Below, in pieces: positions 1 to 25,617 of a stretch of 64,000 nt of DNA; the first letter of the stretch is position 1, and every line of letters starts with the position of its first letter. The position numbers were made by a program, and so were the translations under genes. The notes under the pieces are model-generated. The model was not told the DNA's origin and made no database searches. It worked only from the letters and a program-made list of their open reading frames with translations. This stretch comes from Antrihabitans stalagmiti (GTDB lineage: Bacteria; Actinomycetota; Actinomycetes; Mycobacteriales; Mycobacteriaceae), in contig NZ_JAEMNV010000001.1 of the NCBI RefSeq assembly GCF_016482825.1, positions 620,001 through 684,000 of the forward strand, in the 5' to 3' direction.

Positions 1-1686
1 CAGCAACGATCGCTCGACAAGACTGCTGAGAATGTCGGTCGCGTCGGCAACCGAGCACTCGACCACGGCGGCCGCGCCCGCCGCAGGAAACGGACCGTGA
101 AACACGGAGACGGCCTCGAACAACCTTCGTTCGTCGTCATCGAGAAGTGAGTACGACCATTCGATCGCCGCGCCGAGTGAACTGTGCCTGCCGACCGTTC
201 GCCTGCCGCGCGTCAACATACGCAGCCGATCGTCCAGACCGTCGGCGATCTCATCGAGTGTCAGGGTATGCAGACGTGCGGCAGCCAGCTCGATCGCCAA
301 CGGCAGGCCGTCGAGTCGGCGGCATACCGTTGCGATTACGGCTCGTTCTGCTTCGGAGGGTTCCCACCGTGGCAGCACTGCGTCGGCCCGATCTGTAAAC
401 AGCTGCACCGCAGGCTGATCCGCTGCGTACATCGACGGCAGCGGTAGGGGCGGGACCGGACACAGATGTTCGCCGTCGATTCTCAGGCGTTCACGACTTG
501 TCACCAGAACTGTCACGCCGGGGGCGCGGTGGACGACCGTTTCGGCCAACGCGGCAGCCTCGTCCAGCACGTGCTCGCAGTTGTCGAGCACCAGCAGCGT
601 TTTCTGGTGTTGCAGCACCTCGGCGATACGCTGCACCGGATCGGCACCGCTACGCGGCTCGATATCGAGCACAACCGCGACGGTGAGCGCAACGGTGTCG
701 CTATTCGCCTGCGCGAGCGCGCAGAACCAGACTCCGTCGGGGAAACGTGGCGCAATTCGACGGCACACCTCGCTGGCCAGGCGCGTTTTGCCGACGCCTC
801 CGGTTCCCAGCACCGTGACTATGCGGTGGTCGGTCAACAATCTGTCCAGGTTCGCTACGAGGTCTTCGCGGCCGACGAAGGTGTTGTCGTGCCGACCGAA
901 CCCAACAAGCCGACCTTGATTTTCCTGTGGGGCAACCTCTTCTGCGAGATCGGCCGTTGATGCGGTCAGCATCGAATCGTGCAGTCGTGCGATCTGCGGC
1001 GACGGATCTATCCCAAGTTCCTCACCGAGCCTGCGGCGATAGCGGTCGTACACGGCAAGTGCGTCGGCGTTTCGACCCTCCCGATGCAGAGCGGTCATCA
1101 GGTGCCCCTGTGGTCGCTCCCGTAGCGGGTGCCGTGCCGCGAAAGCATCGAGATCAGCAAGCACGTCGCGATGCCTGCCTGCCGCCAACAGCAGGTCGAA
1201 CTTCACCTCGCTTGCCCTGTTCCGTATCTCGATCAGTCGTTCGGCTTCGATGGCTGCGTCGGCCACGTCGCCCAGTTCCTCGTAGGGCCTCCCTCGCCAC
1301 AACACCTCCGCGCCGTCGAGGATCGTCAGCGCTGCAGTGCCGTCCCGATCAGTTGCGGCGCGAGTGACTGCTGTCTCGAAGACCCGAGCGTCGAGTGCCG
1401 CGGCGTCGACGCTCAACCGGTAGCCCGACGCTGTTCGCTCGATGTCGACGGCAGGCAGCGATCGCCTGAGCCGAAACATGTGGGTATGCAGTGCAGCATG
1501 GTGGTCGGCCGGAAGCTTTGTCGGCCAGAGCGCCTCACAGAGTGCGTCGGCCGAAACGATGGCGTTGGCGTGCAGTACGAGCATCGCGAGCAAACGGCGC
1601 TGCAGGGTGCCTTTCGGTGCGCGGTCGACAGAGTCGATGCTGACCTGCACCGGCCCGAGCACACCGATCACCAGATTCGAAGCCAT
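1..1686 (-). CDS. AfsR/SARP-family transcriptional activator with NB-ARC ATPase (3' end outside window)
   Basis: The reading frame is open from the ATG at 1686 to the window edge, giving 562 codons without a stop. Visible order: an N-terminal winged-helix DNA-binding domain (about residues 1-95), a bacterial transcriptional activation domain with TPR-like helices (about 100-245), then an NB-ARC/STAND ATPase with P-loop GTGGVGKTR near 294-302 and Walker B LLVLDNCEH near 355. This is the AfsR/DnrI class of pathway-specific activators. It diverges from the PIG-L gene at 1792, beside the glycosyltransferase/acyltransferase cluster, so it is a plausible activator of that cluster; this is inference from position only. 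The C-terminal domain, often TPR repeats, lies outside the window. Confidence 0.9.
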   Translation of the reverse strand, partial: MASNLVIGVLGPVQVSIDSVDRAPKGTLQRRLLAMLVLHANAIVSADALCEALWPTKLPADHHAALHTHMFRLRRSLPAVDIERTASGYRLSVDAAALDARVFETAVTRAATDRDGTAALTILDGAEVLWRGRPYEELGDVADAAIEAERLIEIRNRASEVKFDLLLAAGRHRDVLADLDAFAARHPLRERPQGHLMTALHREGRNADALAVYDRYRRRLGEELGIDPSPQIARLHDSMLTASTADLAEEVAPQENQGRLVGFGRHDNTFVGREDLVANLDRLLTDHRIVTVLGTGGVGKTRLASEVCRRIAPRFPDGVWFCALAQANSDTVALTVAVVLDIEPRSGADPVQRIAEVLQHQKTLLVLDNCEHVLDEAAALAETVVHRAPGVTVLVTSRERLRIDGEHLCPVPPLPLPSMYAADQPAVQLFTDRADAVLPRWEPSEAERAVIATVCRRLDGLPLAIELAAARLHTLTLDEIADGLDDRLRMLTRGRRTVGRHSSLGAAIEWSYSLLDDDERRLFEAVSVFHGPFPAAGAAAVVECSVADATDILSSLVERSLL

Positions 1687-1727
1687 CGTCTTCTACCGCC
1701 GAATCGTCACAAAGTGCGCAAATCGTA

Positions 1728-1748
1728 GCTCACCTGGCATATGTGAGC
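1728..1748. promoter_or_regulatory. inverted repeat in the SARP/PIG-L divergent promoter
   Basis: GCTCAC and GTGAGC form perfect 6-bp arms around a 9-nt spacer in the 105-bp gap between the two divergent genes. It may be a regulator site; the arms are short, so chance is not excluded. Confidence 0.3.
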
Positions 1749-1769
1749 CGATGGAAGTTGGATGTGAGT

Positions 1770-1780
1770 ACCTACCGACA
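1770..1780 (+). promoter_or_regulatory. shared ACCTA-type element, copy 1
   Basis: ACCTACCGACA lies 11 nt before the PIG-L start codon. Related sequences occur upstream of four other genes of glycolipid or hydrolase type in this window (3892-3906, 6533-6547, 25574-25587, 26959-26971). Confidence 0.3.
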
Positions 1781-1791
1781 CGATTGCTGAC

Positions 1792-2529
1792 ATGACCACT
1801 TCCTTGCAGAACCATTCCGCACGCAACCTGGTTGCCCGACTCGGCGACATCGTCACCATCTGGGCACACCCCGACGACGAGTCGTATCTAGCCGGCGGCC
1901 TGATGGCGCTTGCCGCTGCCACCGGCGCGAAGGTGACCTGCGTGATCGCTACCGCGGGTGAACTCAACGCACCTGCCGAAGATCGAGCGGCGCTCGGCCG
2001 ACGCCGGACCGACGAGTTGACGGCCGCTCTCGGCGCACTCGGTGTGCAGGACCACGTTCTGCTCGGCTTTCCCGACGGAGGCTGTGCGGCAGTCGATCCC
2101 GAGATCGCAATCGCCGAACTCGTAGCAATACTGAAAGATCGCCGACCGAAGACGGTCATCACTTTCGGTGCGGACGGTTTCACCGGCCATCCGGACCACC
2201 GCACGGTGTCACGCTGGGTCGACGCCGCCGTAGCGCGCTTCGACGACGATGCGCCGAACCTGTTGCACAACACTGGCATCCACGAGCACAGTGCCGCTTT
2301 CGAGGATGTGCACACACAGTTCGATATCTTCGAACCGGGCCTGCCGACCACCACCGCGCCACACGATCTCGCGTTGCTCGTCGAACTCGAAGGACCTCTG
2401 CTCGACGCAAAGTTGCGAGCGTTGGCCGCACACGGAAGCCAGACGACCGACCTCATGGCGGCGATGGGGATCGAAAGATACCGCGACTGGATCTCGTTGG
2501 AGTGCTTTGTCGTTGCACCAGGCCATTGA
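1792..2529 (+). CDS. PIG-L (LmbE-like) family deacetylase
   Basis: A 245-aa protein with the two zinc-binding signatures of the PIG-L family: AHPDDE at residues 25-30 and GHPDH at 132-136. Members remove N-acetyl groups from sugars such as GlcNAc-inositol (MshB), mycothiol conjugates (Mca) or glycolipid and glycopeptide intermediates. Its place between a SARP activator and a block of glycosyl- and acyltransferases suggests it deacetylates an amino sugar of the cluster product, freeing an amine for acylation; that is inference. No clear Shine-Dalgarno precedes the ATG, so a short or leaderless mRNA is possible. It converges on the acyltransferase gene ending at 2532. Confidence 0.8.
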   Translation: MTTSLQNHSARNLVARLGDIVTIWAHPDDESYLAGGLMALAAATGAKVTCVIATAGELNAPAEDRAALGRRRTDELTAALGALGVQDHVLLGFPDGGCAAVDPEIAIAELVAILKDRRPKTVITFGADGFTGHPDHRTVSRWVDAAVARFDDDAPNLLHNTGIHEHSAAFEDVHTQFDIFEPGLPTTTAPHDLALLVELEGPLLDAKLRALAAHGSQTTDLMAAMGIERYRDWISLECFVVAPGH

Positions 2530-2531
2530 CC

Positions 2532-3866
2532 TCACCAGAACGTGGCCGACAACCCCCATGCGGTCAGTTCTTCCGAGATCTGCTTGCGCACAGAGTCGGT
2601 ATCGCCGAAATAGTCCGGATGGATTCCGAAGATCGTCACCGTGACCTTGTCGCCGTATTCGACGGCCCATGCCGCGATCGCAGGACCCTGTCTTCGGCGG
2701 TCGGAGGCCGTGTGGCCGACCATGATTGCGCGAATCGCGAACGACTCGGCGGTGAGTCCACCGAGTTCGATGGACGTAGCGGGTGCGACACCGAGATTGG
2801 AAACCGTCGCATCCGGACCCACCACGGAGCGCATCATCTTCCCGATGAGCTTCTTCGGGAGCAACCGAACGATCGGCTGTAGGTTGTCGGCAACCTTGTC
2901 GTTGCCCGATGTCGCGTACTCCCTGAGCGCGTCTTTGCTGAGCGCTCGTATCTCGCGGAGTCCCCGCTCAGGACCGATCTCGTCGCGGATCCGAATCCAG
3001 ACTCCCCCAGATGCATTGGCGCGGTCGTCGCCGTCTTCGCGCCTGTTCACGGCGATGCAGATCCGCATCTCGTCGTCTGTCAAAGGGCAACCCGCGCGCT
3101 GGACGACTCCGCCGAGAACGGCGATCAGCAACCCGTTCGGTGTACCGCCGTGCTGCTTTGCTGTACCGATCCACTCGCTCTTCGGAATATCGACGATGGC
3201 AAGCGTGGTGTCGGGGGCGGCATCATCGGCAGACGGCGAGGCAAGCATGCTTGCGGGCCGGGTCGGCTTGGCAGTACCGCGTTTTCGCTGGCGCCAGAGT
3301 TCTTTCGCTACCACCCGCATGGCGGAGGCTGCTTCGACCACTTGGCTGCCTGAATCGGCGAGGTCTCCCCGCAGACCCGCCCACCCGCGCACGTCGTCAG
3401 CGGTGGGCAGTGTGGACGTCGAGGTCCCGGCGTGCGCGGCCGCGAGCGCGTTGTACAGCCCTTGACCATCGGTGATCATGTGCGAGACCAACAGGGAGAG
3501 AACGAGTCTCCCCGACTCCGTGTGCGCACACTCCAGCCGCCACCCCGCACCCGCCGCCGGCTCGAGATCGGCCATGCGAAGTCGGGTGTCGGCCCAGTCG
3601 GATACCTCGTCGTCGCCGATGACACGAGCCTCTGTGTAGACGTCGGGGATCTGATGGGCTCGCACCCAACGATGCCTGGCGAGCGGGACTCGCGCTCGGA
3701 CCACCCGGCGATCGAGCACGCCGGCTGCAAGCTCATCTCGCAACCCTGTCACCGCATTCGCACCGGGATCCGTAGCGTAGATCCACAGGTACTGAATCGG
3801 CGCGGAAAGCCCGAAGTTGTTCTCCGCCAACAGGTACGACTCGTCGGCCCCAGCTACTCGACTCAT
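2532..3866 (-). CDS. condensation-fold (PapA/WS-DGAT-like) acyltransferase
   Basis: A 444-aa protein of the CoA-dependent acyltransferase fold. The catalytic motif HxxxDG is present as HMITDG at residue 129, in the spot expected for condensation domains, PapA proteins and WS/DGAT enzymes. I chose the ATG at 3866 because AAGGAG (3873-3878) sits 6 nt upstream; a GTG at 3887 lacks this. It follows 3909-5228 on the same strand with a 42-bp gap and resembles it in length, motif position and C-terminal pattern, so the two look like an ancient duplication. Acceptor and acyl donor cannot be told from sequence; esterifying a sugar hydroxyl is likely given the neighbouring GT1 genes. Confidence 0.7.
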   Translation of the reverse strand: MSRVAGADESYLLAENNFGLSAPIQYLWIYATDPGANAVTGLRDELAAGVLDRRVVRARVPLARHRWVRAHQIPDVYTEARVIGDDEVSDWADTRLRMADLEPAAGAGWRLECAHTESGRLVLSLLVSHMITDGQGLYNALAAAHAGTSTSTLPTADDVRGWAGLRGDLADSGSQVVEAASAMRVVAKELWRQRKRGTAKPTRPASMLASPSADDAAPDTTLAIVDIPKSEWIGTAKQHGGTPNGLLIAVLGGVVQRAGCPLTDDEMRICIAVNRREDGDDRANASGGVWIRIRDEIGPERGLREIRALSKDALREYATSGNDKVADNLQPIVRLLPKKLIGKMMRSVVGPDATVSNLGVAPATSIELGGLTAESFAIRAIMVGHTASDRRRQGPAIAAWAVEYGDKVTVTIFGIHPDYFGDTDSVRKQISEELTAWGLSATFW

Positions 3867-3891
3867 CGAAATCTCCTTGGTCTCCACATAC

Positions 3892-3906
3892 GGTTTGTCG
3901 GTAGGT
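3892..3906 (-). promoter_or_regulatory. shared ACCTA-type element, copy 2
   Basis: ACCTACCGACAAACC on the minus strand, 25 nt before the chosen start of the acyltransferase at 3866. If it is a promoter, the gene may have its own transcript in addition to read-through from 5228. Confidence 0.3.
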
Positions 3907-3908
3907 CC

Positions 3909-5228
3909 TTACGAGATCCGATGCGGCACACCCCACCCGGCTAGCTCTCCGGCAAGAAGGTTTCGCAACACCGCATCGTCGCCGAAGTGCGTCTCGTCGA
4001 ACGCCACGACCGAGAACGACACGTTGTCGCCGACCTCGAGCAGCCACGACTGAACACCGTCGCCGAATCTGAACGGCATCGACGGATCGACGTGCTGCGC
4101 GATCCCCCGAAAGAACACCGATGTCGCAATCTCGTCGCCGATCTCGGCGAGTTCGGCAGGGAAGCTACCCAGGTTCGACACAACTGCGTCCGGCATTCCG
4201 GACCCGGCAGACGCTGCAGTGGCGATCAAGCGCGCAGGCAGCATCTGCAACAGTGGCTGCAGGTGAACGAACGCGGGTCGACGCCCCGCTGACAACGCGG
4301 CGAAGGCACGTTTGCACGCACTCCTGATTCCAGCGAGGTCCCCACCTGCGACCGGCTCTTCCGTGAGATACACCGATACGCCGGCGGTCGCATTGCCGCG
4401 GGTGTCGCCGTCGACCCGCTGACTCACAGGTATTCCGACTTTGACGGTCTGGCCGAGCGGCGCATATCCGGAGGTGCGCAGCAGCCCGGACACGACAGCG
4501 ACGAACAACGAATTCGCCGTCCCGCCATGTCGTTTCGCCACCACCTCCCAATCCTGCCTGTCCACAGTCACCGTTGCCCATACAGGACGAGCCAACGGCG
4601 CGCGCTCATGCAGAGGTGCCTTCTTCACGACGTCGACATTGCCGGCGGCGCCACTGCCACGCGCCACAGCAACGGCGGCTCTGCAGATGCCGAGACCGGC
4701 CGAAACGAACTGCCTGGCAGCGTCTTCCAGATCCGACCCGAGCATCGAAGCGCGACCGAACTGCTGCGGTTGCTGTAGCGGTGCGCTATCTCGGGCACTC
4801 GACGCCGCTGCTACCAACGTCTTTCCGTCGGTTACCAGATGTAACGCGCAGAGCGACAGCACGAATCCCCCGGTGTCGGTGGCGACGCCACGCAGTTGCC
4901 AACACCGCCCGGCCTCCGCATTGAGCGGCACCGTATCGAGCTCCGCAGTCAGCCACTCGTTCGGCGAATCTGTCGCGCCCTCGTCGACGATCACCCCCGG
5001 ACGAACTGTCGACTGTGTCCAATACGGGCGCGCCAGCGGGACTTGCGGTGTCACCAGCCTGCGATTCAGTGGCCCACCGGCGAGTCGAGCGGCCATCTCC
5101 GACAAAGCTTCTCGACTAGGCGGACGCGAGAACGCCCACGCAACCTGCAGTACTACCGACCAACCGAAGGCAGTGTCGACGAATCGGTACACGAAGTCCG
5201 ACGATTCGAGGCGGTGAGGCGCCCTCAC
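3909..5228 (-). CDS. condensation-fold (PapA/WS-DGAT-like) acyltransferase
   Basis: A 439-aa paralogue of the gene at 2532-3866, with the catalytic motif HLVTDG at residue 130 and the same overall layout (ligand-side N-terminal half, second half with VSNLGSFP near the C-terminus). Its ATG overlaps the stop codon of the GT1 gene (ATGA at 5225-5228), so the two are translationally coupled and probably act on the same glycolipid: the transferase adds the sugar, this enzyme acylates the product. Substrates are unknown. The VSNLG-type motif in both paralogues resembles the conserved NxG-type region of WS/DGAT and PapA5 proteins. Confidence 0.7.
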   Translation of the reverse strand: MRAPHRLESSDFVYRFVDTAFGWSVVLQVAWAFSRPPSREALSEMAARLAGGPLNRRLVTPQVPLARPYWTQSTVRPGVIVDEGATDSPNEWLTAELDTVPLNAEAGRCWQLRGVATDTGGFVLSLCALHLVTDGKTLVAAASSARDSAPLQQPQQFGRASMLGSDLEDAARQFVSAGLGICRAAVAVARGSGAAGNVDVVKKAPLHERAPLARPVWATVTVDRQDWEVVAKRHGGTANSLFVAVVSGLLRTSGYAPLGQTVKVGIPVSQRVDGDTRGNATAGVSVYLTEEPVAGGDLAGIRSACKRAFAALSAGRRPAFVHLQPLLQMLPARLIATAASAGSGMPDAVVSNLGSFPAELAEIGDEIATSVFFRGIAQHVDPSMPFRFGDGVQSWLLEVGDNVSFSVVAFDETHFGDDAVLRNLLAGELAGWGVPHRIS

Positions 5229-6511
5229 CGGAGAACTCGTTCGGCGGATAGGACGTGACTCTCGATGGCATCGGCTGCTGCGGCAACGGCGGCGTCGGGT
5301 GGAGTCAACGTCGCGGCAAACGCACGCGCCCTATCTCGACATTCGGCGGTTGCTATCTCGCCCAGACCATCCCGGAGCTTCGCAGCATCGAGCCCCTTCA
5401 ATCTTGTGGACGTTCCGATCCCCATCGTCCGAACGATCTCGCCCCAGAACGGTTGATCCGAACCGACCCAACACACCATCGACGGCACACCTGCCCGTGC
5501 CGCTGCGGCCGTCGTTCCCGCGCCACCGTGATGAACGATCGCGCTGCACATCGGGAAGACGCGATCATGATCTACCGCGCCGATAGCGCGAACGTTCGCA
5601 CTCGGAGTTATCTCGAAGTCGTTCCACCCAGCGCTGATCAGCGCGCGCTCCCCAAGGTCGGCGCATACCTTGGTGATCGCTGCCAGCAACCCCTGTGGGT
5701 CGGGGACCGGCATCGAACCGAAGCCGAAGTAGATCGGCGCAGGTCCGTCGGCAATCCACTCGAGCAGGTCGGGCTCGGGCTCGTTGTCCTCGCCGATCAG
5801 GGTGCGTTGCTCGGCGGTCGGGTCGATGAAGCCAACGAATGGACGCATCGAGTCCCAGCTCTGCGCGAGCTCCGGAACAAGGACGGCGTCGTAAGCCTGG
5901 ATCTGCAGCGTCGGATAGCTCACCAGCCGCACTGCGAGTGCGGATGTGGCCGGCTCGAGCCCGAGGTCGGCCCGCAATCGGTTCTCCCGAGAACGAGTGA
6001 TAAACCAGAACAGACTGTCGAAAAGCTTCCAGCTCGCTCGATTGAGCCAGTGCGGCAACGACAACGACGCGCCGGGAACCGGCGACACGTACGGATTTGC
6101 CAGGATCGGCGCGTGGTGCAGCGTGATCAGCTTCGCGCCCGCAGCCTCGGCATAGCCGATCGCGATCTGTTCGGTCGTGAAACCTGTGACGATGGCGTCG
6201 CAACCGCCCTGGAGCTCCGACATCTCCTCGACCATCTGCGCCCAGCCGTAGTTTCGGATCTCCGCGAGAGCCTTCAGCCGTTGCCTCGGCGTGCCGGTCC
6301 GGGGACCTTGGCGGACGAGATCGGAGTTCATGTGTGCGCGAGTGTCGTAGCCGAAATTTTTCGCATCCAGTCCTGTGCGCGCTGCGAATCCCACCAGATT
6401 GGGCGGCGCACCGAACACCACATCGTGGCCTCGACGTCGCAGCTCGGCTGCGAGGACAACCGCGGGCTGAATATCGCCGCGGGTGCCATTGAATGCGAAA
6501 GCGAACTTCAT
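5225..6511 (-). CDS. GT1/MGT-family glycosyltransferase
   Basis: A 428-aa two-domain GT-B enzyme. The N-terminus shows the acceptor-domain signature GTRGDIQP (residues 9-16) and the C-terminal half the nucleotide-sugar motif HHGGAGT followed by SDQPFWG, as in the mycobacterial Rv1524/Rv1526c and glycopeptidolipid Gtf proteins and in macrolide/glycopeptide transferases. It would move a sugar from an NDP-sugar to a lipid or glycolipid acceptor at the cytoplasmic face. GGAG lies just before the ATG at 6511. It is head-to-head with the paralogous GT1 at 6627 across 115 bp and coupled to the acyltransferase at 5228. Confidence 0.85.
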   Translation of the reverse strand: MKFAFAFNGTRGDIQPAVVLAAELRRRGHDVVFGAPPNLVGFAARTGLDAKNFGYDTRAHMNSDLVRQGPRTGTPRQRLKALAEIRNYGWAQMVEEMSELQGGCDAIVTGFTTEQIAIGYAEAAGAKLITLHHAPILANPYVSPVPGASLSLPHWLNRASWKLFDSLFWFITRSRENRLRADLGLEPATSALAVRLVSYPTLQIQAYDAVLVPELAQSWDSMRPFVGFIDPTAEQRTLIGEDNEPEPDLLEWIADGPAPIYFGFGSMPVPDPQGLLAAITKVCADLGERALISAGWNDFEITPSANVRAIGAVDHDRVFPMCSAIVHHGGAGTTAAAARAGVPSMVCWVGSDQPFWGEIVRTMGIGTSTRLKGLDAAKLRDGLGEIATAECRDRARAFAATLTPPDAAVAAAADAIESHVLSAERVLR

Positions 6512-6532
6512 ACGCGTCTCCGGTTCGATGCT

Positions 6533-6547
6533 ATCTTGTGGATAGGT
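6533..6547 (-). promoter_or_regulatory. shared ACCTA-type element, copy 3, with overlapping palindrome
   Basis: ACCTATCCACAAGAT on the minus strand, 21 nt before the GT1 start at 6511. It overlaps CTATC-TTGTG-GATAG (6531-6545), a 5-bp-arm inverted repeat in the divergent GT1/GT1 promoter region. Confidence 0.3.
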
Positions 6548-6626
6548 TGTCGTCCGTTCCGAAACTCGATCTTAGTCCGGACCCGCCATTTGTGCATTAC
6601 GGCATCGACAGAATGTGATATCGCCC

Positions 6627-7910
6627 ATGAAATTTGTCTTGGCCTTCAATGGTTCGCGTGGTGATATTCAGCCGGCCGTCGCGTTGGGTGTTCGACTTCG
6701 TGAACGAGGGCACACGATAGCCATTGCAGCGCCGCCGAACCTCGTCGAATTCGCCGAATCGTCCGGTCTCGACGCGTATTCCTACGGCCTCGACACCTTG
6801 GAATTGTTGGAATCCGATCTGGTCGGCAAAGATCTGAAATCCGCCAATCCACTCACACGTATCCGGGCGATCAACGAAATCACGATGCGGGGTGGATTGC
6901 AGATGCAGTCCGAACTTCTGGCCATCGGTGCGGAGGCGGACGCGATCGTCGGAGGTAGCGCCGGGCAGGAACGAGCGCTTAACGTCGCAGCATCCCTCGC
7001 TATCCCCTACGTCCCGTTGCACTACTGCCCTGTTCGACGCAACGGCTCGGTGTCACTGTTCGATCCCGCGACGAAGCACCTCCCGCGACTCGTTCGCGAG
7101 CCTGTCACCCGCGCGAGTTGGGCCGCCGTCGAGCATCTGCTGTGGCGAACAGGCAAGTCCGCAGACGATGCGTTGGCAGCCGATCTCGGGCTACCACCCA
7201 GCACGGCTCCCGCTGCAGCGCGTATCGCGCGCCGCGGGACGCCGGAAATCCAGGCCTACGATCCGGTCCTGTTCGGCGATCTCGAAAAGGAGTGGGGTGC
7301 GGGCCGCCCGCTCGTTGGATTTATCGATCTTTCGAAGGAGACGCGAGCGCGGATTGGCGACGACTCCGACGACGGTGAATTGTCGCAGTGGCTCGCCGCC
7401 GGGCCGCCTCCGATCTACGTCGGGTTCGGCAGCATGGCCGTACCCAACGCCACCGAACTTATGAATATCATTGTGGCAGTCTGTATCTCGCTTGGTCACC
7501 GGGTGCTCGTCGCCGCAGGGTGGAGTGCGTGTGCGCTCGAGTCCGACGAGCGCGTCCACGTCACGCGATCTGTCGATCACGACGCCGTCCTGCCGCGCTG
7601 TCGTGCGGCCGTCCACCACGGCGGTGCAGGGACGACGGCCGCGAGCCTGCGGGCGGGAGTGCCAACGGTGGTCTGCTCGATCGGAGCGGACCAACCGATC
7701 TGGGGCGCACGGGTTACCAAGGTGGGTGCGGGCGCAACGCTGCGGCTCACCGATGTGACACCGACGACCTTCGACGCGGCGTTGTCGCGAGCGCTCGACG
7801 CCGCCTGCGTTGCCGCAGCAGGACGAGTCGCCGCAGCGATGATTGCGCCCGCCGCTGCCGCGGATCGTGCAGCGGACATCGTGGAGCAGGCGTGCGTCGG
7901 GGATCGTTAG
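6627..7910 (+). CDS. GT1/MGT-family glycosyltransferase
   Basis: A 427-aa paralogue of the GT1 at 5225-6511. It starts MKFVLAFNGSRGDIQP, nearly the same as its neighbour, and keeps HHGGAGTT plus GADQPIWG in the nucleotide-sugar site. The ATG at 6627 was chosen because it aligns with the paralogue's start; an in-frame GTG at 6615 would add only four residues. The two genes are divergently arranged, so they probably arose by duplication and inversion and could add two sugars in sequence. Its TAG stop directly abuts the stop of the convergent GT2 gene, leaving no intergenic bases. Confidence 0.85.
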   Translation: MKFVLAFNGSRGDIQPAVALGVRLRERGHTIAIAAPPNLVEFAESSGLDAYSYGLDTLELLESDLVGKDLKSANPLTRIRAINEITMRGGLQMQSELLAIGAEADAIVGGSAGQERALNVAASLAIPYVPLHYCPVRRNGSVSLFDPATKHLPRLVREPVTRASWAAVEHLLWRTGKSADDALAADLGLPPSTAPAAARIARRGTPEIQAYDPVLFGDLEKEWGAGRPLVGFIDLSKETRARIGDDSDDGELSQWLAAGPPPIYVGFGSMAVPNATELMNIIVAVCISLGHRVLVAAGWSACALESDERVHVTRSVDHDAVLPRCRAAVHHGGAGTTAASLRAGVPTVVCSIGADQPIWGARVTKVGAGATLRLTDVTPTTFDAALSRALDAACVAAAGRVAAAMIAPAAAADRAADIVEQACVGDR

Positions 7911-8774
7911 CTACGGATTGATTCGATCGACGGTTGCGAGGCGATAGTTTCGCGCCGAGAACGATCCGGACTTCGGATCGTATCCGCGGATCACTGCGAG
8001 CCGACCGGCGTGCAGCACGGTGAGGGCCGGTAGGTAGACAAATGTCGCCAACGCCGCGTACCCGAATCGACGATGCAGCAGGAGCGTCCGAGGCAGGAAA
8101 CTCATATATACGACAAACGCCGACATCCGAGTTTCCATCCGGCGTGGAGAAACACCGACGGTGATATTCGGAAGAAATGCAATGCTGCCGCCGGATTCAC
8201 CTACGCACAGCCCGGTATCGACATCTTCGAAGATATCGCGCCGCATACTCACGGCATCGCGAATCTTGTGCCATACGTCGCGTCGCAGGATCATGTTCGA
8301 GCCATACAAAACCGGTACTTCTCGGACAGCACTATTAGTGTTGCTGCCGAGATAGCGGCGTTTGAAATTGCCGAGCCGATCACCGTACGGGAGTCCGTAG
8401 GCCTCTCCCCTGCCACACGCCGCAGCCCATTTACCGGCGGTGTCTCCTGCAAAGAATTCGACGATCGACTTCGCCCAATGTGGCGGTACCAAAGTATCGG
8501 AATCTATTCGCGCAATCAGGGGGCCCGTGGCCGCGTCGAGGCCCGCGTTTCGGGCGAATACCAGGCCTTGTTCGCGCTCGCTGATCATCTTCACCTCAGC
8601 GAATCGTGACGCGAACGTTTCCACGATGCTGTTCGTGTCGTCGGTCGAGTTGTTGTCGACAACCACGATCTCGGCGATGTGTTCCAGTTGCGCGGTCAGC
8701 CGCTCGAGGCACTCACCGATGATGTCCTCTTCGTTGTAAGTCGGAACAACTATCGACAGACATTTGGTGTCCAC
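7911..8774 (-). CDS. GT2-family glycosyltransferase
   Basis: A 287-aa GT-A enzyme. It opens with LSIVVPTYNEED, carries VVDNNSTD for nucleotide binding, the metal-binding DSD in ARIDSDT near residue 100, and an EDVDTG acceptor-site acidic motif. The C-terminal quarter is hydrophobic and arginine-rich, suggesting membrane association. I placed the start at the GTG at 8774, which has GAAGAAGGG a few bases upstream and lies 17 bp after the permease stop; the longer frame to 8870 overlaps the permease. It follows drrA-drrB-like genes on the same strand, so it is probably in the exporter operon and works on a lipid-linked acceptor. Confidence 0.8.
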   Translation of the reverse strand: MDTKCLSIVVPTYNEEDIIGECLERLTAQLEHIAEIVVVDNNSTDDTNSIVETFASRFAEVKMISEREQGLVFARNAGLDAATGPLIARIDSDTLVPPHWAKSIVEFFAGDTAGKWAAACGRGEAYGLPYGDRLGNFKRRYLGSNTNSAVREVPVLYGSNMILRRDVWHKIRDAVSMRRDIFEDVDTGLCVGESGGSIAFLPNITVGVSPRRMETRMSAFVVYMSFLPRTLLLHRRFGYAALATFVYLPALTVLHAGRLAVIRGYDPKSGSFSARNYRLATVDRINP

Positions 8775-8791
8775 ATCGATCCCTTCTTCGG

Positions 8792-9625
8792 TCAGGCACG
8801 GTGCATGTACACGCGGAGAGTGAGCGGAACGAAGACGGCAAGGACGGTCGCCGCACCGAGCAGTGACCAACCGATCTGCGTGCCGAAGGTCCCGTCGTCA
8901 GCGAGCTCGCGGACAGCCGACACGAGGTGCGAGACAGGGTTGACGTTGGCGAATGCTTGCATCCAGCCCGGCATCGTCGACACGGGCACCAACGCGTTCG
9001 ACATGAAGGTCAGCGGCATCAACACCAGCATCGAGACGCCCTGAACGGTGGATGCCTTGTCCATCAGCACACCCATCAACGCAAAGATCCAGCTCAATGA
9101 AAACGCCACGGCAACAACGAGAACGCAGGCAAACAGCAGACCTGCAACGCTGCCGGGGCGATACCCCATGGCCAGGCCGACTACGACGGTCATCGCCGTA
9201 GCGACGGCGTATCTGACGACGTCGGCCAGCAGCGAACCCGCCAGCGGTGCAATACGCGCGATCGGCAGCGATCTGAACCGATCGAACACACCCTTGTTCA
9301 TGTCCTCGCGTAGTTGCACTCCCGTTGTCACCGACGCCGCGATGGCAACCTGCACCATGACGCCCGGAATCAGAGTGGGGAGATAGGCGCCGACCGACCC
9401 CGCGATGGCACCGCCGAAGATGGCGGAGAACATCACCGCGAACACGACGGGCAGGGCGATCACGTCGAACAGGTGCTGCGGATTGTGGCGCAGCTTGAGC
9501 AGACCGCGCTGGGCCATCGTCGAGGTGTGCGAAATCGATTGGCGCACATCGATGCGGTGCGGAATCACACGCCCGGCAAGCGGATCCGTGCCGACCGACG
9601 ATAGGCGGGCATCCGTAACGGTCAT
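8792..9625 (-). CDS. ABC-2 type exporter permease (DrrB-like)
   Basis: A 277-aa membrane protein with about six hydrophobic segments, beginning with a cytoplasmic stretch and DVIALPVVFAVMFSAIFGG. This is the DrrB/ABC-2 permease layout used for export of lipids such as phthiocerol dimycocerosates, of antibiotics and of polysaccharides. Its start overlaps the ATPase stop by 4 bp (ATGA at 9622-9625), giving strict translational coupling. Sitting between glycosyltransferase and acyltransferase genes, it most likely moves the finished or partly built glycolipid across the membrane; the cargo is inferred. Confidence 0.85.
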   Translation of the reverse strand: MTVTDARLSSVGTDPLAGRVIPHRIDVRQSISHTSTMAQRGLLKLRHNPQHLFDVIALPVVFAVMFSAIFGGAIAGSVGAYLPTLIPGVMVQVAIAASVTTGVQLREDMNKGVFDRFRSLPIARIAPLAGSLLADVVRYAVATAMTVVVGLAMGYRPGSVAGLLFACVLVVAVAFSLSWIFALMGVLMDKASTVQGVSMLVLMPLTFMSNALVPVSTMPGWMQAFANVNPVSHLVSAVRELADDGTFGTQIGWSLLGAATVLAVFVPLTLRVYMHRA

Positions 9626-10581
9626 GCTGCCTCCCCTCGTGCCGACTGGCTCGTTATCGCGAAGAACACTTCGTCGAGGCTGGGCTTCTTGACGTTGACC
9701 TCGCGTATCGCGACCCCGTCGGACCGCAGCGCCAGCAACATCTCCGGAAGTGCGTCCAGGTCGTCGACGGGCGAAGCAACGATCCCACCCGGTGATATGA
9801 CGGCGTCGCCGGTTGTAAAGCGCGATATGACGGCAGCCGCGGTCGCCGCAAGGGCTTCATCGGTCAGAGTGAAGACAAGGAGTTGCGCTCCGACAGCGGA
9901 TTTCAGTTCGTCCGCCGTGCCCTCGGCTACGAGCGAGCCTCGATCGACAACCGCAATTCGGTCGGCGAGTTGGTCGGCTTCGTCGAGGTATTGGGTCGTC
10001 AGCAGGATCGTTGTGCCCTCGGCGACCAACGCGCGCAACCTGTCCCACAGTTGTGCGCGCGTGCGGGGATCCAGTCCGGTTGTCGGTTCGTCGAGAAACA
10101 GCAGCGGCGGAGCAGCGACGAGGCTGGCCGCGAGATCCAATCGACGACGCATGCCGCCGGAGAACTTCTTCAGCGGCCGATCGGCGACGTCGTCGAGACC
10201 GAACTCGCCCAGCAGCGTGGATGCTTTGAGCTGCGCCGCCTTTCGGCCAAGTCCGTGCAACTTGCCGAAGACGACGAGATTTTCCTGCGCGGTCATATCG
10301 TCGTCGACGGACGCATACTGACCCGTCAACCCGATGAGCGACCGCACGGCAGTGGCTTCTTCGACGACGTCGTAGCCGAAGACCTTGGCAGTCCCCGAAT
10401 CCGGCCGTAGCAGTGTCGCGATCATACGAACGAACGTGGTCTTGCCCGCCCCGTTGGGGCCGAGAACCGCATAGACGGAGCCCGCAGGCACCTGCAGATC
10501 TATGCCATCGACTGCGCGGAAGCTTCCGAACGACTTGGTCAGGCCTGCCGTCGCGATGGCGAGGTCGCTCTCCGTACTCAT
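9622..10581 (-). CDS. ABC exporter ATPase subunit (DrrA-like)
   Basis: A 319-aa ATPase with Walker A GPNGAGKTT, signature FSGGMRRRLDLA, Walker B LLFLDEPTTGLD and the C-terminal extension typical of DrrA proteins (KKPSLDEVFF near the end). I set the start at the ATG at 10581, which has GGAGGG 6 nt upstream; the longer frame to 10650 lacks a ribosome site. It is the first gene of the unit drrA-drrB-GT2. The operon faces away from the three PapA-type genes across a 433-bp divergent promoter region, so both sides could answer to one regulator. Confidence 0.9.
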   Translation of the reverse strand: MSTESDLAIATAGLTKSFGSFRAVDGIDLQVPAGSVYAVLGPNGAGKTTFVRMIATLLRPDSGTAKVFGYDVVEEATAVRSLIGLTGQYASVDDDMTAQENLVVFGKLHGLGRKAAQLKASTLLGEFGLDDVADRPLKKFSGGMRRRLDLAASLVAAPPLLFLDEPTTGLDPRTRAQLWDRLRALVAEGTTILLTTQYLDEADQLADRIAVVDRGSLVAEGTADELKSAVGAQLLVFTLTDEALAATAAAVISRFTTGDAVISPGGIVASPVDDLDALPEMLLALRSDGVAIREVNVKKPSLDEVFFAITSQSARGEAA

Positions 10582-11014
10582 GTTCCCTCCATCGTGGGTG
10601 AGGCGGGATCGATCCGAAGTTTGCCGGTCGGACGCTGTGGTGCTCGGCAAACGAATTGGTCACTCGTTGCCGAGCATATGGATGTAACGCGGACCCGCAA
10701 CTGGACCGATACATAGCCAAGATGCGATGTGTCGGCACGCGGCAAACGCCGAAAAGATGCCTGAAGTCGCAGGGTTCATCTCGCGGACATCTTCGCGTCA
10801 TCGCGTCGAAATCGGATCTCGGCAGGCCCGTTGTGGTCTATTCCACATTCATTACTTAGCGTGACAAAAGTTACGCATCGTCGGCTGCGCGCGATCGGCG
10901 CGTCGCGCCTAGCATCGCTTTCGCGTCACTTTCGGGCGGTGTTGCCCACAGGACGCCGCCGGCTTCGTGATCACCGCGAATCACCCTCCTGGTTACAGAA
11001 GTGGATGTGGCCCA
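10582..11014. promoter_or_regulatory. 433-bp divergent intergenic region, exporter operon / PapA genes
   Basis: No gene is seen here. Two symmetric elements stand out: TGTGG-N6-CCACA at 10832-10847 and the 13-bp palindrome GGCGCG-T-CGCGCC at 10897-10909. A locally AT-richer stretch around 10830-10875 is the most promoter-like part. This is the longest gene-free stretch in the window. Confidence 0.45.
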
Positions 11015-12436
11015 ATGCGATTCACCGAACTCTCCGACTATCCGCTACCCGCAGGAAGACTCACAGCCTGGGTGCCGAGCACACGATGCGACGGTGCGAC
11101 CTGGTCCGCAGACGCACGTCCGCTTGCCTACACACACGAGGATCACTGCGCCCGCGGCAGTGGCGATCGCGCCGCAAGCACATCGTGGCTCGGCGGCGTT
11201 TTCGAAATCCACCATCGCTACGACGCCGACAAGGTCGCCAGCGCGCTACGCGCATGGATGCTGCGTCACGAAACGTTCCGCACAACGGTGGTCGAGAATC
11301 TCGATGGTCAAGGTACCGATCGCTTTTCACGACGAACCACCTCGGGCGAACTTCTCGGCGTCGACGCGGTTGCCCACCAGACGTTGACGTCGGAACACAT
11401 GCACGCCAAGGTGATCGACTTCTTCGACAACCACATCTCGCCGTTTGCGTGGCCGCATTGTGTCGCCGCAACCATCGAAACGCCAGAGTCGTTTCTCCTG
11501 ATCTTCGGCGCCGACCACTCGGTGATGGATGCGTACTCGATGTTGTTGGCTATCAGCGAGATCCACCGACTCTACGAATACGAACTGTTCGGCACCGACC
11601 CGGGACTGCCCGACGTCGGTAGCCACCTCGACTTCAGTGTGCACGATCGCGAACTTGGCAATTCGGTCGTTGCAGAGCATCACGCCGTGAAGGCGTGGAG
11701 CCGATTCCTTCGGCAGTCCGGCGGCAAGTTCCCTGCGTTCCCGCTGCCGGTCGACACGTCGGTCGGCTCGGAAGACGCTGCCGCACAGCAAGGTAGCTCC
11801 TCGTCGTGGTTGCTGAACGCAGAGCAGGCAGAAGCCGTCAATGCGTACAGCCGGCAGGCAGGCCACGGAATGCAGTCGGCGATACTCGCCTCGGTCGCCT
11901 TGGCGAACCGCGAGCTCACCGGGGACCCGACCCTGCGCTTCACGATGCCGATGCATACCAGACACGAGTTGGCCTATCGCTTCTCGGTCGGGTGGTACGT
12001 GGGCATCGTCCCTGTCGAGGTGAACCTCCGCGGTGCAACGACATTCGAGGATTGCCTGGTTGCTGCGACGACAGCTGTCGCGTCGGCAAAAGAGCTGGCG
12101 CGCTTTCCCTATCCACGTATTGCCGAACTGCTCGACAATTCTGCGATTCCGCGTTTTGCGTTGTCCTATCTGGATGTTCGATACGTGCCTGACGCCGAAC
12201 AGTGGCCGCAGTGGCGCGCCCGAACGCTGCGCGGTCGTTCGGAATCGAATGACGAAGTCTACTTCTGGATCAGCCGCGCACCGGCCGGACTGACGATCTC
12301 CACTCGCTTTCCCGGCAACACGACGGCGACAGGAAACGTCGAACGCTTGATCAGCACATTCGGGTCGATGCTCACATCGGTCGCCGACGGCGGTAACTTC
12401 GCGCACGCCGCCGACGCAACGCAACGGGCAAGCTGA
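11015..12436 (+). CDS. PapA-type acyltransferase
   Basis: A 473-aa condensation-fold acyltransferase with HSVMDA at residue 168, i.e. the catalytic HxxxD with Ala in place of the usual Gly. The N-terminal LPAGRLTAW pattern matches the PxPGxxxxW start of PapA proteins that acylate trehalose and other glycolipids. Start: ATG at 11015; the open frame extends further upstream but without a ribosome site. It is followed after 9 bp by a second and then a third related gene on the same strand. The three differ strongly outside the motifs, which suggests distinct positions or acyl chains on one acceptor. Confidence 0.7.
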   Translation: MRFTELSDYPLPAGRLTAWVPSTRCDGATWSADARPLAYTHEDHCARGSGDRAASTSWLGGVFEIHHRYDADKVASALRAWMLRHETFRTTVVENLDGQGTDRFSRRTTSGELLGVDAVAHQTLTSEHMHAKVIDFFDNHISPFAWPHCVAATIETPESFLLIFGADHSVMDAYSMLLAISEIHRLYEYELFGTDPGLPDVGSHLDFSVHDRELGNSVVAEHHAVKAWSRFLRQSGGKFPAFPLPVDTSVGSEDAAAQQGSSSSWLLNAEQAEAVNAYSRQAGHGMQSAILASVALANRELTGDPTLRFTMPMHTRHELAYRFSVGWYVGIVPVEVNLRGATTFEDCLVAATTAVASAKELARFPYPRIAELLDNSAIPRFALSYLDVRYVPDAEQWPQWRARTLRGRSESNDEVYFWISRAPAGLTISTRFPGNTTATGNVERLISTFGSMLTSVADGGNFAHAADATQRAS

Positions 12437-12445
12437 GGAGGTCGG

Positions 12446-13912
12446 ATGATCATAACGGCGATGCGAAACTGGCGACCGGAGCCAGGCGACCTGCTCGAGT
12501 GGCGTCCGACCGAGCAAGCGCGGGCGATTGCCGATGCTGCACCTGCCGAGGCCGATCCACCGACCTTCCTGCAGCAGACCCACGTTCGAGGCTTCCTCGC
12601 GAAGCAGCAACGCGGCGGGCCACACAGGGCTTTCCTCGGTGTCACCACCGAGGTCGAGGGCGATCTCGACGAGGCTGCCCTCACCCGGGCACTCACGTCG
12701 TATGTGCATCGCCACGACGGCTTGCAGACCTACTTCTCCGCTGCTGGACCCGCAATCGTTCGACACCGGATTGATTCGACAGCAATCGATTTCGAGGTCC
12801 ACCGTGCGGGCGCACTCGAACACACCGATGCCTTCGCCGAATACATCCATCATCGTTTCGAAAACGAAGCGACGTCCGTTCGGTGGCCAGGGTTTGCCTT
12901 CGGTGCGGTCCGTCGACCTGGCAGCTTCACGATCTACTACGGCTGCGATCACGCTTTCAGCGACGGAGCATCGCAAGTGCTGGCACTGTCGGAGTTGGTC
13001 GATCGCTATCGAGCAGAGGTGGACGGCTCGGAACCCAGCGTCTACACGTCGGCACCAACGGGTGGCTTTCCTGACTACGCCTGCACGGAACATGCACTCG
13101 CACAAGCTCATACGGCCGAGTCCCCCGAACTCGCCGAGTGGCTGCAGATTTTCGAAAACCACGGTTCGACGATGCCGGCGTTTGCCCTCGATCTCGGCCT
13201 GGCACCGGGTGAGACCGCGCCCGTTCGCCCAGTCGAGTTCGATCTCCTCGACACCGCAGGCACCGACGCATTCGACGCCGTGTGCAAAGCAGCGGGCGGC
13301 AAACTGATCAGCGGGATCTATGCTGCTCTGGCGATCACCGACTACGAACTCGCAGGCCGACCCGAGTACTACGGCATGAGCGTCCTCAACAGCCGCGACG
13401 TCGGCAACTACGCGCTTTCGCAGGGTTGGTTCTGCAACTTTGCCCCCGTAACGTTCCGCACCGCCGACGCGTCGTCGTTCCGCGAGCTCGTGCCGCTTGC
13501 CCACGATGGCCACCTTCGTTCGAAGCGCCTCGCTCGGGTACCGGTGCAGGCTGTGATCATGGCACTACTGGCGTCGGGCGCGTCTGCCGAGGAAGTGGCG
13601 AAGAGTCCGCACATGCTGTCCTACATCGATTTTCGTTGGTTTCCCGGAGTCGGATCGACCACCTACGAGAAAGGATTGCTCTTCACGGGAGAAGGCGAGA
13701 CTGCCAATGCCTCGATGTGGATCAACCGCGACCACAGCCATCTCTACTTCGGCAGCCAGACTCCGGACACGCCACAGGCTCGGAACGAATTGTCCAGGTA
13801 TCACACACATTTGCACCGTGTGATTGCTGCGATCGCGCGGGACGGCGACTACGCGATCCCCCGGTCCACGGTTGTCGATGAGGGATTGATCCTTGCACGT
13901 CACAACAATTGA
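12446..13912 (+). CDS. PapA-type acyltransferase
   Basis: A 488-aa protein, second of three tandem PapA-like genes. The catalytic motif is HAFSDG at residue 169, and the N-terminus has WRPEPGDLLEWRP, the typical PapA opening. GAGGAGG lies 5 nt before the ATG at 12446, the best ribosome site in the operon. The gene overlaps the third acyltransferase by 20 bp. Family members transfer acyl groups from CoA or from a PKS to sugar hydroxyls (PapA1, PapA2, PapA3 in trehalose lipids). No PKS is present in the window, so acyl-CoA is the likelier donor here. Confidence 0.75.
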   Translation: MIITAMRNWRPEPGDLLEWRPTEQARAIADAAPAEADPPTFLQQTHVRGFLAKQQRGGPHRAFLGVTTEVEGDLDEAALTRALTSYVHRHDGLQTYFSAAGPAIVRHRIDSTAIDFEVHRAGALEHTDAFAEYIHHRFENEATSVRWPGFAFGAVRRPGSFTIYYGCDHAFSDGASQVLALSELVDRYRAEVDGSEPSVYTSAPTGGFPDYACTEHALAQAHTAESPELAEWLQIFENHGSTMPAFALDLGLAPGETAPVRPVEFDLLDTAGTDAFDAVCKAAGGKLISGIYAALAITDYELAGRPEYYGMSVLNSRDVGNYALSQGWFCNFAPVTFRTADASSFRELVPLAHDGHLRSKRLARVPVQAVIMALLASGASAEEVAKSPHMLSYIDFRWFPGVGSTTYEKGLLFTGEGETANASMWINRDHSHLYFGSQTPDTPQARNELSRYHTHLHRVIAAIARDGDYAIPRSTVVDEGLILARHNN

Positions 13913-15230
13913 CCGCTACTCCCCCGAACCCGGCACAGTTCTGCAGTGGGTCGTGACTCCCGGGAGCCGACCGATCAGGTCCGCGGTGCCGCCTTCGTTC
14001 AACCAGAACTTCCATCTGAACGCGCCCGACGGACCTAGCGTGTGGCTCGCCGGCGGCTTCGATGTCGATGGACCGATCGACAGCAAGGCCCTCGAGCAGG
14101 CGTTCAGCGCGCTCCTCGATCGGCACGGCGCGTTGCGAAATTCCTTCGTACGGAACGATGAAGGAATCGAGCGGCAACTGCATCGGCGCGTACAGCTCAA
14201 ACAACTGCAGGACAGTAGCTTCGACACGTCAGCCGAGATCCGTAACCATCTTCGGACCGCACTCGATACGCATTGCCGACGTTTCGGCAGTTCCACATGC
14301 CTGCTGTCGGCCATCGATCGGCCAGGGCGGTCGACCGTATTCTGCGGCTTCGACCACGCGCATGTCGACGCGTACTCGATCGCCATCATCGTCGCCGAGT
14401 TGCACCACCTGTATTCCGGATACCTTGCCGATGCCAGCGGTCTGAGCATCGAGCCGCTGCCGCATGTCGGGGACTTCATCGACTACTGCGCCGCCGAAGC
14501 GGTCGTCGAGAAGGTCTCTCCCGACGACAGACGAATGCGCGCGTGGCTCGACTTTCTTCGCAAGAACGACTGCGCGCCGCCGAACTTTCCGCTCGACCTC
14601 GGCATCGTGGCGGGTTCGTCGACGGCGCAACGCTCCGACGTTCGTCACCTGCTCGATGCCGACGACACCCAGCGTCTCGCGGAGGTCTGCCAGCGGGCGA
14701 ACACAAGCGTGTTCGCGGGGGTGCTCACCGCGATGGCGCAGTGTGCCTGTGCACCCAGCGAATCCGCGTACATGCCGGTGCTGGTCCCTGTACACACTCG
14801 ACGCTCGGAGCACTGGCACCACGCCGTCGGGTGGTTCACCACCAACGTGCCCATCGAGGTCGCCGCGGGCACCGATTTCATCGATGCCCTCCGCCGCAAT
14901 GGTGGAGAGTTGCGAAATGCTTTGCAGCTGGGTGAGATTCCGCTTGCGCGCGTTGTCGAAGTGTTGGGTGGTCTGAAGGCGACGAGGTCCGACGTCTTCA
15001 TGACGTCCTACGTCGACTACCGGAAGTTGCCCGGTGCCGAACTGCACGGCGCAATCGACGCTCATCATGTCTCGAATGTGACCGCTGCCGACGACGCGCA
15101 GTTCTGGTTCTCGCGAACCGACGATGGCATAACTCTGCGAAGCCGGTATCCCGACACACCGACTGGTCGTGCCACGATGACGAGCTTTCTCGACGACCTG
15201 TCCCGTGTGCTGCGAAGTGCGGTGCAATAG
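13893..15230 (+). CDS. PapA-type acyltransferase
   Basis: A 445-aa protein, third of the tandem set, with YSPEPGTVLQW at the N-terminus and HAHVDA at residue 155 (HxxxD with Ala next, as in 11015-12436). The start is the TTG at 13893, preceded by GAGGGA and lying inside the end of the previous gene; the next in-frame candidates would cut into the conserved opening. Overlap of 20 bp argues for coupled translation. The function is inferred as acylation of the same glycolipid built by the neighbouring glycosyltransferases. Confidence 0.75.
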   Translation: MHVTTIDRYSPEPGTVLQWVVTPGSRPIRSAVPPSFNQNFHLNAPDGPSVWLAGGFDVDGPIDSKALEQAFSALLDRHGALRNSFVRNDEGIERQLHRRVQLKQLQDSSFDTSAEIRNHLRTALDTHCRRFGSSTCLLSAIDRPGRSTVFCGFDHAHVDAYSIAIIVAELHHLYSGYLADASGLSIEPLPHVGDFIDYCAAEAVVEKVSPDDRRMRAWLDFLRKNDCAPPNFPLDLGIVAGSSTAQRSDVRHLLDADDTQRLAEVCQRANTSVFAGVLTAMAQCACAPSESAYMPVLVPVHTRRSEHWHHAVGWFTTNVPIEVAAGTDFIDALRRNGGELRNALQLGEIPLARVVEVLGGLKATRSDVFMTSYVDYRKLPGAELHGAIDAHHVSNVTAADDAQFWFSRTDDGITLRSRYPDTPTGRATMTSFLDDLSRVLRSAVQ

Positions 15231-25477: not shown

Positions 25478-25573
25478 GTGAAATCCTCCGCCACTAGTCG
25501 CACGGGCACCCGTCCACCCCCTTCTTTAACTATCGTCTCCAACAGTCGTCTTGATAACAAACCGGCCGAGTCC

Positions 25574-25587
25574 ACCTATGACAAACC
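25574..25587 (+). promoter_or_regulatory. shared ACCTA-type element, copy 4
   Basis: ACCTATGACAAACC, 30 nt before the GT1 start at 25618. It closely matches the copy before the hydrolase at 26997. Confidence 0.35.
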
Positions 25588-25617
25588 GATCTCTCAACCC
25601 GACCGAAAGTAGAGCCG

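Follow-up and report, generated by a model that had tools for sequence, protein, structure and literature searches.

Chemists have known of trehalose-oligosaccharide surfactants from Rhodococcus, Nocardia and Tsukamurella since at least 1989, judging from the reference list of PMC4365757. The available part of this review covers three kinds of oligosaccharide lipids from outside Mycobacterium: a succinic tetraester of a trisaccharide (made by a Rhodococcus sp. and by R. fascians NBRC 12155), a succinic octaester of a pentasaccharide (Nocardia corynebacteroides SM1), and esters of tri- and tetrasaccharides (T. tyrosinosolvens DSM 44370). Here we describe a block of ten genes in Antrihabitans stalagmiti which, judging from its sequence, quite probably makes and exports an acylated trehalose-oligosaccharide lipid, either a biosurfactant or an outer-envelope glycolipid. 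The block occupies positions 2532-15230 of the window, a stretch of 64,000 nucleotides (bases 620001-684000 of contig NZ_JAEMNV010000001.1; assembly GCF_016482825.1, genome 6.39 Mb), and encodes two acyltransferases (AT1, AT2), two GT1 and one GT2 glycosyltransferases (GT1a, GT1b, GT2), a DrrAB-type exporter and three PapA2-like acyltransferases (C1, C2, C3).

As far as we found, the closest precedent is the papA proposal for Rhodococcus sp. I2R. In the part of this paper available (PMC8396431), the lipids are succinic esters whose sugar is either a disaccharide or a trisaccharide interpreted as trehalose plus glucose, i.e. acylated trehalose with or without one hexose, alike in class to the product proposed here. 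The lengths and tabulated positions of four I2R papA genes resemble a layout of the R. fascians type, with C1, C2 and C3 followed by a gap of 1.5 kb and C1′, a further PapA2-like gene discussed below. The same part of the paper proposes papA, trehalose, sucT-like and phenylacetate genes and mentions glycosyltransferases in general terms, with neither an exporter nor an experimental test. Unlike I2R, which is known to us from these listed positions, the window encodes DrrAB and three glycosyltransferases but no C1′. Another relative by description is TlsA of Rhodococcus sp. SD-74, cited in PMC8396431 as an acyltransferase with a key role in succinoyl trehalose lipid formation; it is a single gene, whose similarity to the papA genes of I2R that source puts at about 30%.

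The mycobacterial pathways for sulfolipid and for di- and polyacyltrehalose (DAT/PAT), which employ PapA1/PapA2 and Chp proteins, are like the block in that PapA2-like enzymes act on a trehalose core and export follows synthesis. The acyl chains of these mycobacterial acyltrehaloses are made by Pks enzymes, and to our knowledge the pathways include no oligosaccharide extension. DAT/PAT formation requires FadD21 and the transporter MmpL10 (available part of PMC4183827), whereas the window block has no polyketide synthase (PKS) or FadD gene and instead contains DrrAB and three glycosyltransferases. A single papA3 adjoining a glycosyltransferase in a nonribosomal peptide synthetase (NRPS) cluster is mentioned in the available part of PMC13206832. 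Our literature search, which mostly did not extend to subscription journals, found no paper that gives genes for the oligosaccharide part or tests the block. The gene link for these long-known lipids therefore appears to be new as far as we found, and an earlier note on this DNA, which called the cluster possibly undescribed, stands to that extent; the I2R paper had nevertheless already proposed four papA genes of similar layout, without experiment in the part available.

Conservation of the ten-gene order

Open reading frame calling and Pfam/NCBIfam domain searches recovered every component that the earlier note had named (a SARP regulator, a PIG-L deacetylase, two GT1 and one GT2 glycosyltransferases, DrrAB and the acyltransferases). 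At E 1e-40, GT1a had matches in 27 of 121 genomes searched, the window genome among them. Among the regions taken from ten other GT1a-positive genomes, four (L030, L031, L032 and L035) carried the complete core of ten genes in one order, and another (L039) carried eight, without DrrAB. A C1-profile scan of named genomes returned 156 relatives, the best 80 of which were retained as 73 distinct loci. All 73 were selected by their C1 relative, and the frequency of C1 in the absence of the other genes cannot be read from them; a number of them hold C1-type genes alone or other sets.

All ten core genes were matched in 18 of the 73 loci, and in 15 they stood in the single order AT1-AT2-GT1a-GT1b-GT2-DrrB-DrrA-C1-C2-C3, which argues against a chance assembly. 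The earlier note had asked for gene order to be compared in relatives; the genes are not scattered, and its proposal of a PKS- and NRPS-free cluster that glycosylates, multiply acylates and exports a sugar-based lipid is probable. The 15 full-order loci come from Williamsia, Rhodococcoides, Nocardia, Millisia and Gordonia and differ in the strand of GT2 alone (8 one way, 7 the other). No extra gene was called within the block in any of them; their flanks were not scanned for PKS genes. Seven to nine core genes occur in 14 further loci, and five loci retain the other eight genes without DrrAB.

Three loci were removed from the full set. In L072 and L085 the presumed GT1a lies outside its usual position, and that of L072 falls in a different tree clade; L088 overlaps L042 and combines parts of two adjacent clusters. 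Protein distances among the ten genes were correlated (r 0.71-0.96; 13 loci plus the window) and were set aside as evidence, since shared ancestry was uncontrolled.

Some side observations concern these loci. GT2 inverts as a lone gene within an otherwise fixed ten-gene order (window 7911-8804; L041-L082). One full-order locus, L050, belongs to a record named Kitasatospora arboriphila; its block and accD5-accA3 context share the layout of Williamsia muralis, with nearly equal scores, and the record is perhaps mislabelled or a contaminated assembly. Several Williamsia loci (L042/L088, L045, L046, L064, L073, L079 and L083) carry upstream of the block a second, more diverged C-gene set, with at least two of C1-C2-C3 in view, so that two glycolipid pathways may lie side by side there.

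Acyltransferases

The genes for C1 (10967-12436, start possibly 11015), C2 (12446-13912) and C3 (13893-15230, start uncertain) lie on the plus strand, and each product has a Condensation domain with the active-site signature (H184-x3-D188 in C1, H169-x3-D173-G174 in C2, H155-x3-D159 in C3). The H-x3-D motif is invariant in 8 of 8 homologues of each protein. Profile searches of the PDB placed PapA2 first for all three, at 127 bits for C1 (next match 55), 225 bits for C2 (next 52.5) and 187 bits for C3 (next 75), i.e. with a lead of 72 to 173 bits over the following matches, which are NRPS C domains. PapA2 is a trehalose-2-sulfate acyltransferase with H166 as a catalytic residue (PMC6996325, available part), and this residue aligned to H184 of C1. 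C1, C2 and C3 can be assigned to the PapA-type acyltransferases on sequence, and transfer to trehalose or acyl-trehalose is predicted. Other than C1-C3, the window genome has one distant PapA2-like gene (28%, contig C5).

AT1 (2532-3887) and AT2 (3909-5228), both on the minus strand, are of another kind. They match the WS/DGAT model weakly (28.7 and 33.6 bits) and no Pfam family, PapA_C included, at E 0.001, so that membership of PapA_C does not apply; the sequence profile of AT1 found no match in the PDB at E 0.1. Their predicted AlphaFold structures (mean predicted local distance difference test scores of 88 and 87) resemble PDB structures with condensation, WS/DGAT and BAHD folds (best Foldseek E-values 9e-18 and 7e-19; TM-scores of the best matches 0.6-0.7). 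The motif H-x3-D-G (H136-x3-D140-G141 in AT1, H130-x3-D134-G135 in AT2) is invariant in 30 of 30 AT1 and 24 of 24 AT2 homologues. By predicted fold and motif both proteins qualify as members of the condensation/WS-DGAT acyltransferase superfamily. The count of five condensation-fold acyltransferases given earlier is therefore correct, though they are of two kinds, AT1/AT2 being WS/DGAT-like and C1-C3 PapA2-like.

The junctions AT2/GT1a (-4 nt), DrrB/DrrA (-4 nt) and C2/C3 (-20 nt if C3 starts at the TTG at 13893, which is uncertain) support the coupled starts that had been suggested.

Glycosyltransferases, exporter and proposed pathway

GT1a (5225-6511, minus strand) overlaps AT2 by 4 nt, and GT1b (6627-7910, plus strand, start at 6627 or 6630) is divergent from it. 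In a GT1 tree, of which the bootstrap had not fully converged and which has no row for L085, GT1a and GT1b fell into two distinct clades, both supported, with 17 and 23 rows; each contains proteins of the window and of R. corynebacterioides, and the lone GT1 of R. fascians sits in a third clade. GT2 (about 7911-8804, minus strand, start possibly 8774) has a conserved D-x-D. Cluster-type GT2 proteins (at least 440 bits) occur in 46 of 401 family genomes, the next match scoring 294 bits. Gene fusions join GT1b with GT2 in Nocardia harenae and N. takedensis, and GT1a with AT2 in Millisia brevis.

The ATPase gene drrA (9622-10650, minus strand, start possibly 10581) encodes a protein above the cut-off of the NCBIfam drrA model (343.2 vs 312.45 bits). 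The adjoining ABC-2 permease gene (8792-9625, minus strand) was identified by domain searches, and its product matches the DrrB family TIGR00025 best, under the cut-off of that model (89.7 vs 146.9 bits). Together they qualify as a DrrAB exporter, and export is predicted.

We propose the following pathway. Trehalose, most likely the backbone in view of the PapA2-like sequences, would be supplied by central metabolism; no trehalose gene was found inside the block. GT1a, GT1b and GT2 would add up to three glucose units, giving a pentasaccharide, with UDP-glucose as the probable donor and presumed beta linkages. GT1 enzymes are inverting, and beta linkages are expected of them. The third glucose of known trisaccharide lipids is beta according to a legend in PMC8396431 (available part). 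C1, C2 and C3 together with AT1 and AT2 would esterify hydroxyls from acyl-CoA (medium-chain, 3-hydroxyacyl, short-chain or succinyl-CoA), and DrrAB would export the finished lipid. With acyl-CoA as donor and DrrAB for export, a PKS would be unnecessary. The trehalose acceptor, the identity of the sugars, their linkages, the donors, the order of steps and the DrrAB substrate are those we infer.

A different core, such as glucosyl-glycerol, glucose or a hydroxy-fatty-acid glycoside, would also give an acylated oligosaccharide lipid. The best solved relatives of GT1a use other acceptors, namely glycopeptide GtfB (E 1e-30), followed by GtfA and sterol 3-beta-glucosyltransferases; PapA homology does not fix the acceptor, and the block itself supplies no trehalose gene. 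Three acyltransferases are nevertheless tied to PapA2, and the lipids reported for species with related loci have a trehalose core (available parts of PMC4365757 and PMC8396431), which makes such a core unlikely.

The 17 gene products scanned at positions 1-20156 include no PKS, NRPS, FadD or MmpL protein, in agreement with the earlier note as to PKS and NRPS. This bears on a reading of the block as a variant of the lipooligosaccharide or glycopeptidolipid machinery of mycobacteria, one that modifies a cell-wall glycolipid with polyketide acyl chains from elsewhere. Gtf, Pap and Drr proteins co-occur in mycobacterial loci, and a family genome, G053, likewise combines GT1, PapA-like and Drr genes, though diverged, at one locus (L036). 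The conserved blocks, however, hold no additional gene, and the producer lipids compared bear C2-C11, phenylacetyl and succinyl esters (PMC4365757, PMC8396431, available parts). We regard this reading as very improbable.

Sugar numbers of reported producers

The trehalose-oligosaccharide reading is carried further by two producers whose lipids and loci can be set side by side. In R. fascians NBRC 12155 (L062) a single GT1a match was found genome-wide at E 1e-30, within the cluster; a search of this genome for the cluster-type GT2 was negative (best 216 bits). N. corynebacteroides is the present-day Rhodococcoides corynebacterioides. The locus of strain NBRC 14404 of this species (L102) contains AT1, AT2, GT1a, GT1b, GT2, C1, C2 and C3 in the window order; it differs from the window in having C1′ adjoining accA3, no DrrAB, GT2 on the opposite strand and a seat at accD5-accA3. 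In this genome the two GT1 matches and the single cluster-type GT2 (474 bits) all fall within the block; strain BP-281 shows the same GT1 and GT2 counts. The four PapA2-like matches of NBRC 14404 at E 1e-10 are C1, C2, C3 and C1′, with 2.5 kb separating C1′ from C3.

Trehalose plus the matched glycosyltransferases gives three sugars for R. fascians and five for R. corynebacterioides, equal to the numbers reported. We propose the rule that the number of glycosyltransferases equals the number of sugars beyond trehalose. The window has GT1a, GT1b and GT2, i.e. the pentasaccharide set, and a pentasaccharide-type lipid is therefore predicted, somewhat less certainly than a trehalose-oligosaccharide lipid as such. 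The earlier statement that the product is not evident holds for the product itself, which is predicted from gene content; but reported producers with corresponding genes allow a class to be proposed for it.

Several points weigh against this interpretation. The Tsukamurella locus has one GT1, yet the species is listed with tri- and tetrasaccharides (genome of NCTC 13231, lipids of DSM 44370), so that the rule is not exact. The pentasaccharide was reported from strain SM1 and the genome is that of NBRC 14404. DrrAB is missing at the loci of both producers, and the window genome has no C1′. In R. fascians NBRC 12155 there are five PapA2-like matches, four at the locus and the fifth elsewhere, and R. 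corynebacterioides has six acyltransferase genes, counting C1′, against an octaester. The counts cover homologues of GT1a and of the block GT2, and other glycosyltransferases could contribute. Finally, two matching producers are few, and the agreement could have arisen by chance.

An analogous rule of one enzyme per ester was tried and rejected. It fits the R. fascians lipid (six genes with C1′, six ester bonds counted from the available part of PMC4365757) and fails for the pentasaccharide octaester.

If the interpretation is right, the glycosyltransferase content of a conserved block predicts sugar number, handles for biosurfactant work become available, and surface glycolipids of mycolic-acid bacteria can be made without a PKS.

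The accD5-accA3 locus

Eight of the 15 full-order loci, those of six named Williamsia, L050 and Rhodococcoides trifolii, lie at the housekeeping accD5-accA3 locus. There sseA-sufE and accA3 follow the block, accD5 precedes it in the seven loci of which the left flank shows it, and maf occurs on either side. The R. fascians-type reduced sets and the R. corynebacterioides sets occupy the same locus; this context was not seen in the full-order loci of four Nocardia, one Millisia and two Gordonia. The accD5-accA3 locus of Tsukamurella tyrosinosolvens NCTC 13231 holds a different set, composed of C1′, one GT1, an AT1-like protein and three PapA_C acyltransferases.

C1′ lies between sufE and accA3, about 1.4-2.5 kb past C3 in many relatives. 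It was rejected as a member of the block: it stands behind sseA/sufE adjoining accA3, is present without the block in four loci and is lacking in the window genome. The four block-less Rhodococcus loci in which C1′ adjoins accA3 are L096, L103, L105 and L112 (47-51% to the C1′ of R. corynebacterioides), and in a whole-genome search of the L096 genome it was the sole PapA2-like match. C1′ is perhaps an older trehalose acyltransferase in its own right.

The window genome has an intact carboxylase locus, without block and without C1′. Among the compared loci its AccA3 is nearest to that of R. maanshanensis (91%) and its AccD5 to that of R. gordoniae (92%). Of four genomes of the genus compared, the window genome alone has C1-type genes at E 1e-30. 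The genus mates G001 and G003 share the genes flanking the window block on both sides, with gaps on the left, where one mate or both had a match for 6 of the 10 genes between 602.0 and 612.0 kb. Between about 612.5 and 635.2 kb the genes were unmatched in the mates' regions save for two weak matches (28% and 23% identity), and on this comparison the block belongs to a stretch of about 23 kb that is specific to the lineage. The stretch also contains the SARP and PIG-L genes and genes for an acyl-CoA dehydrogenase, a TetR regulator and a 606-aa short-chain dehydrogenase/hydrolase; its right edge lies between C3 and the following gene (window 15271). Gain in the window lineage and loss in the mates are both possible.

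A wider picture can be offered tentatively, at somewhat less than even confidence. A PKS-free ten-gene pathway for an acylated trehalose pentasaccharide would have its natural seat at accD5-accE-maf-sseA-sufE-accA3, a site with interchangeable sets of glycosyltransferases and acyltransferases across Mycobacteriales in which glycosyltransferase content sets chain length; the window copy would have moved out, without C1′, into a lineage otherwise lacking the block.

A plasmid search with C3 gave matches of less than 60% identity throughout; H2 was an unrelated region and H10 the Tsukamurella locus of use. Two Tsukamurella records labelled as plasmids, L138 (NZ_LR134451) and L114 (NZ_LR134454), carry acyl-CoA carboxylase, biotin ligase and pntB and look like chromosome pieces.

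SARP, PIG-L and other neighbouring genes

The SARP-family regulator gene (BTAD, NB-ARC; 1-1686, minus strand) is truncated by the window boundary; the complete gene encodes 972 aa (L009:16768-19686). SARP-like genes of 30-34% identity were seen in 4 of the 73 loci and in none of the 15 with full order, left flanks being mostly short, and SARP was rejected as a conserved regulator of the block. The PIG-L family deacetylase gene (1792-2529, plus strand; PF02585, 101.9 bits) is convergent with AT1. PIG-L matches at E 1e-10 occur in 9 of 14 genomes searched, but in the cluster in none of the 14, nor at E 1e-8 in any of the 73 loci (left flanks mostly short); the closest match, in N. harenae, is on the cluster's contig about 60 kb off. 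Deacetylation as a core step, as the earlier note had it, was accordingly dropped. PIG-L is probably accessory or unrelated to the block, and both genes may regulate or modify in the window lineage alone.

These two genes invite a further explanation, in which the block carries out the last steps towards a glycosylated antibiotic or another small molecule, the GT1 enzymes decorating an aglycone made elsewhere and DrrAB acting as a self-resistance pump alongside the SARP regulator and the PIG-L deacetylase. SARP and DrrAB are common in antibiotic clusters, SARP and PIG-L share the lineage-specific stretch with the block, and large NRPSs are present elsewhere in the window genome. Yet the conserved unit of ten core genes includes neither PIG-L nor SARP and has no further gene called inside it, five acyltransferases are many for tailoring, and more than half of the full-order loci sit at accD5-accA3. 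A role in antibiotic formation is improbable on this evidence, and a trehalose-oligosaccharide lipid remains the preferred product.

Shortly past the block lies a gene with an HNH endonuclease domain (PF01844; 17346-18689). Further on, at 24140-26901 and apart from the block, a cytochrome P450 gene and a third GT1 gene (GT1c) form a divergent pair. GT1c and genes from two genus mates (61-65% identity) make up a clade of their own; in one of these mates a related P450 (56%) lies nearby.

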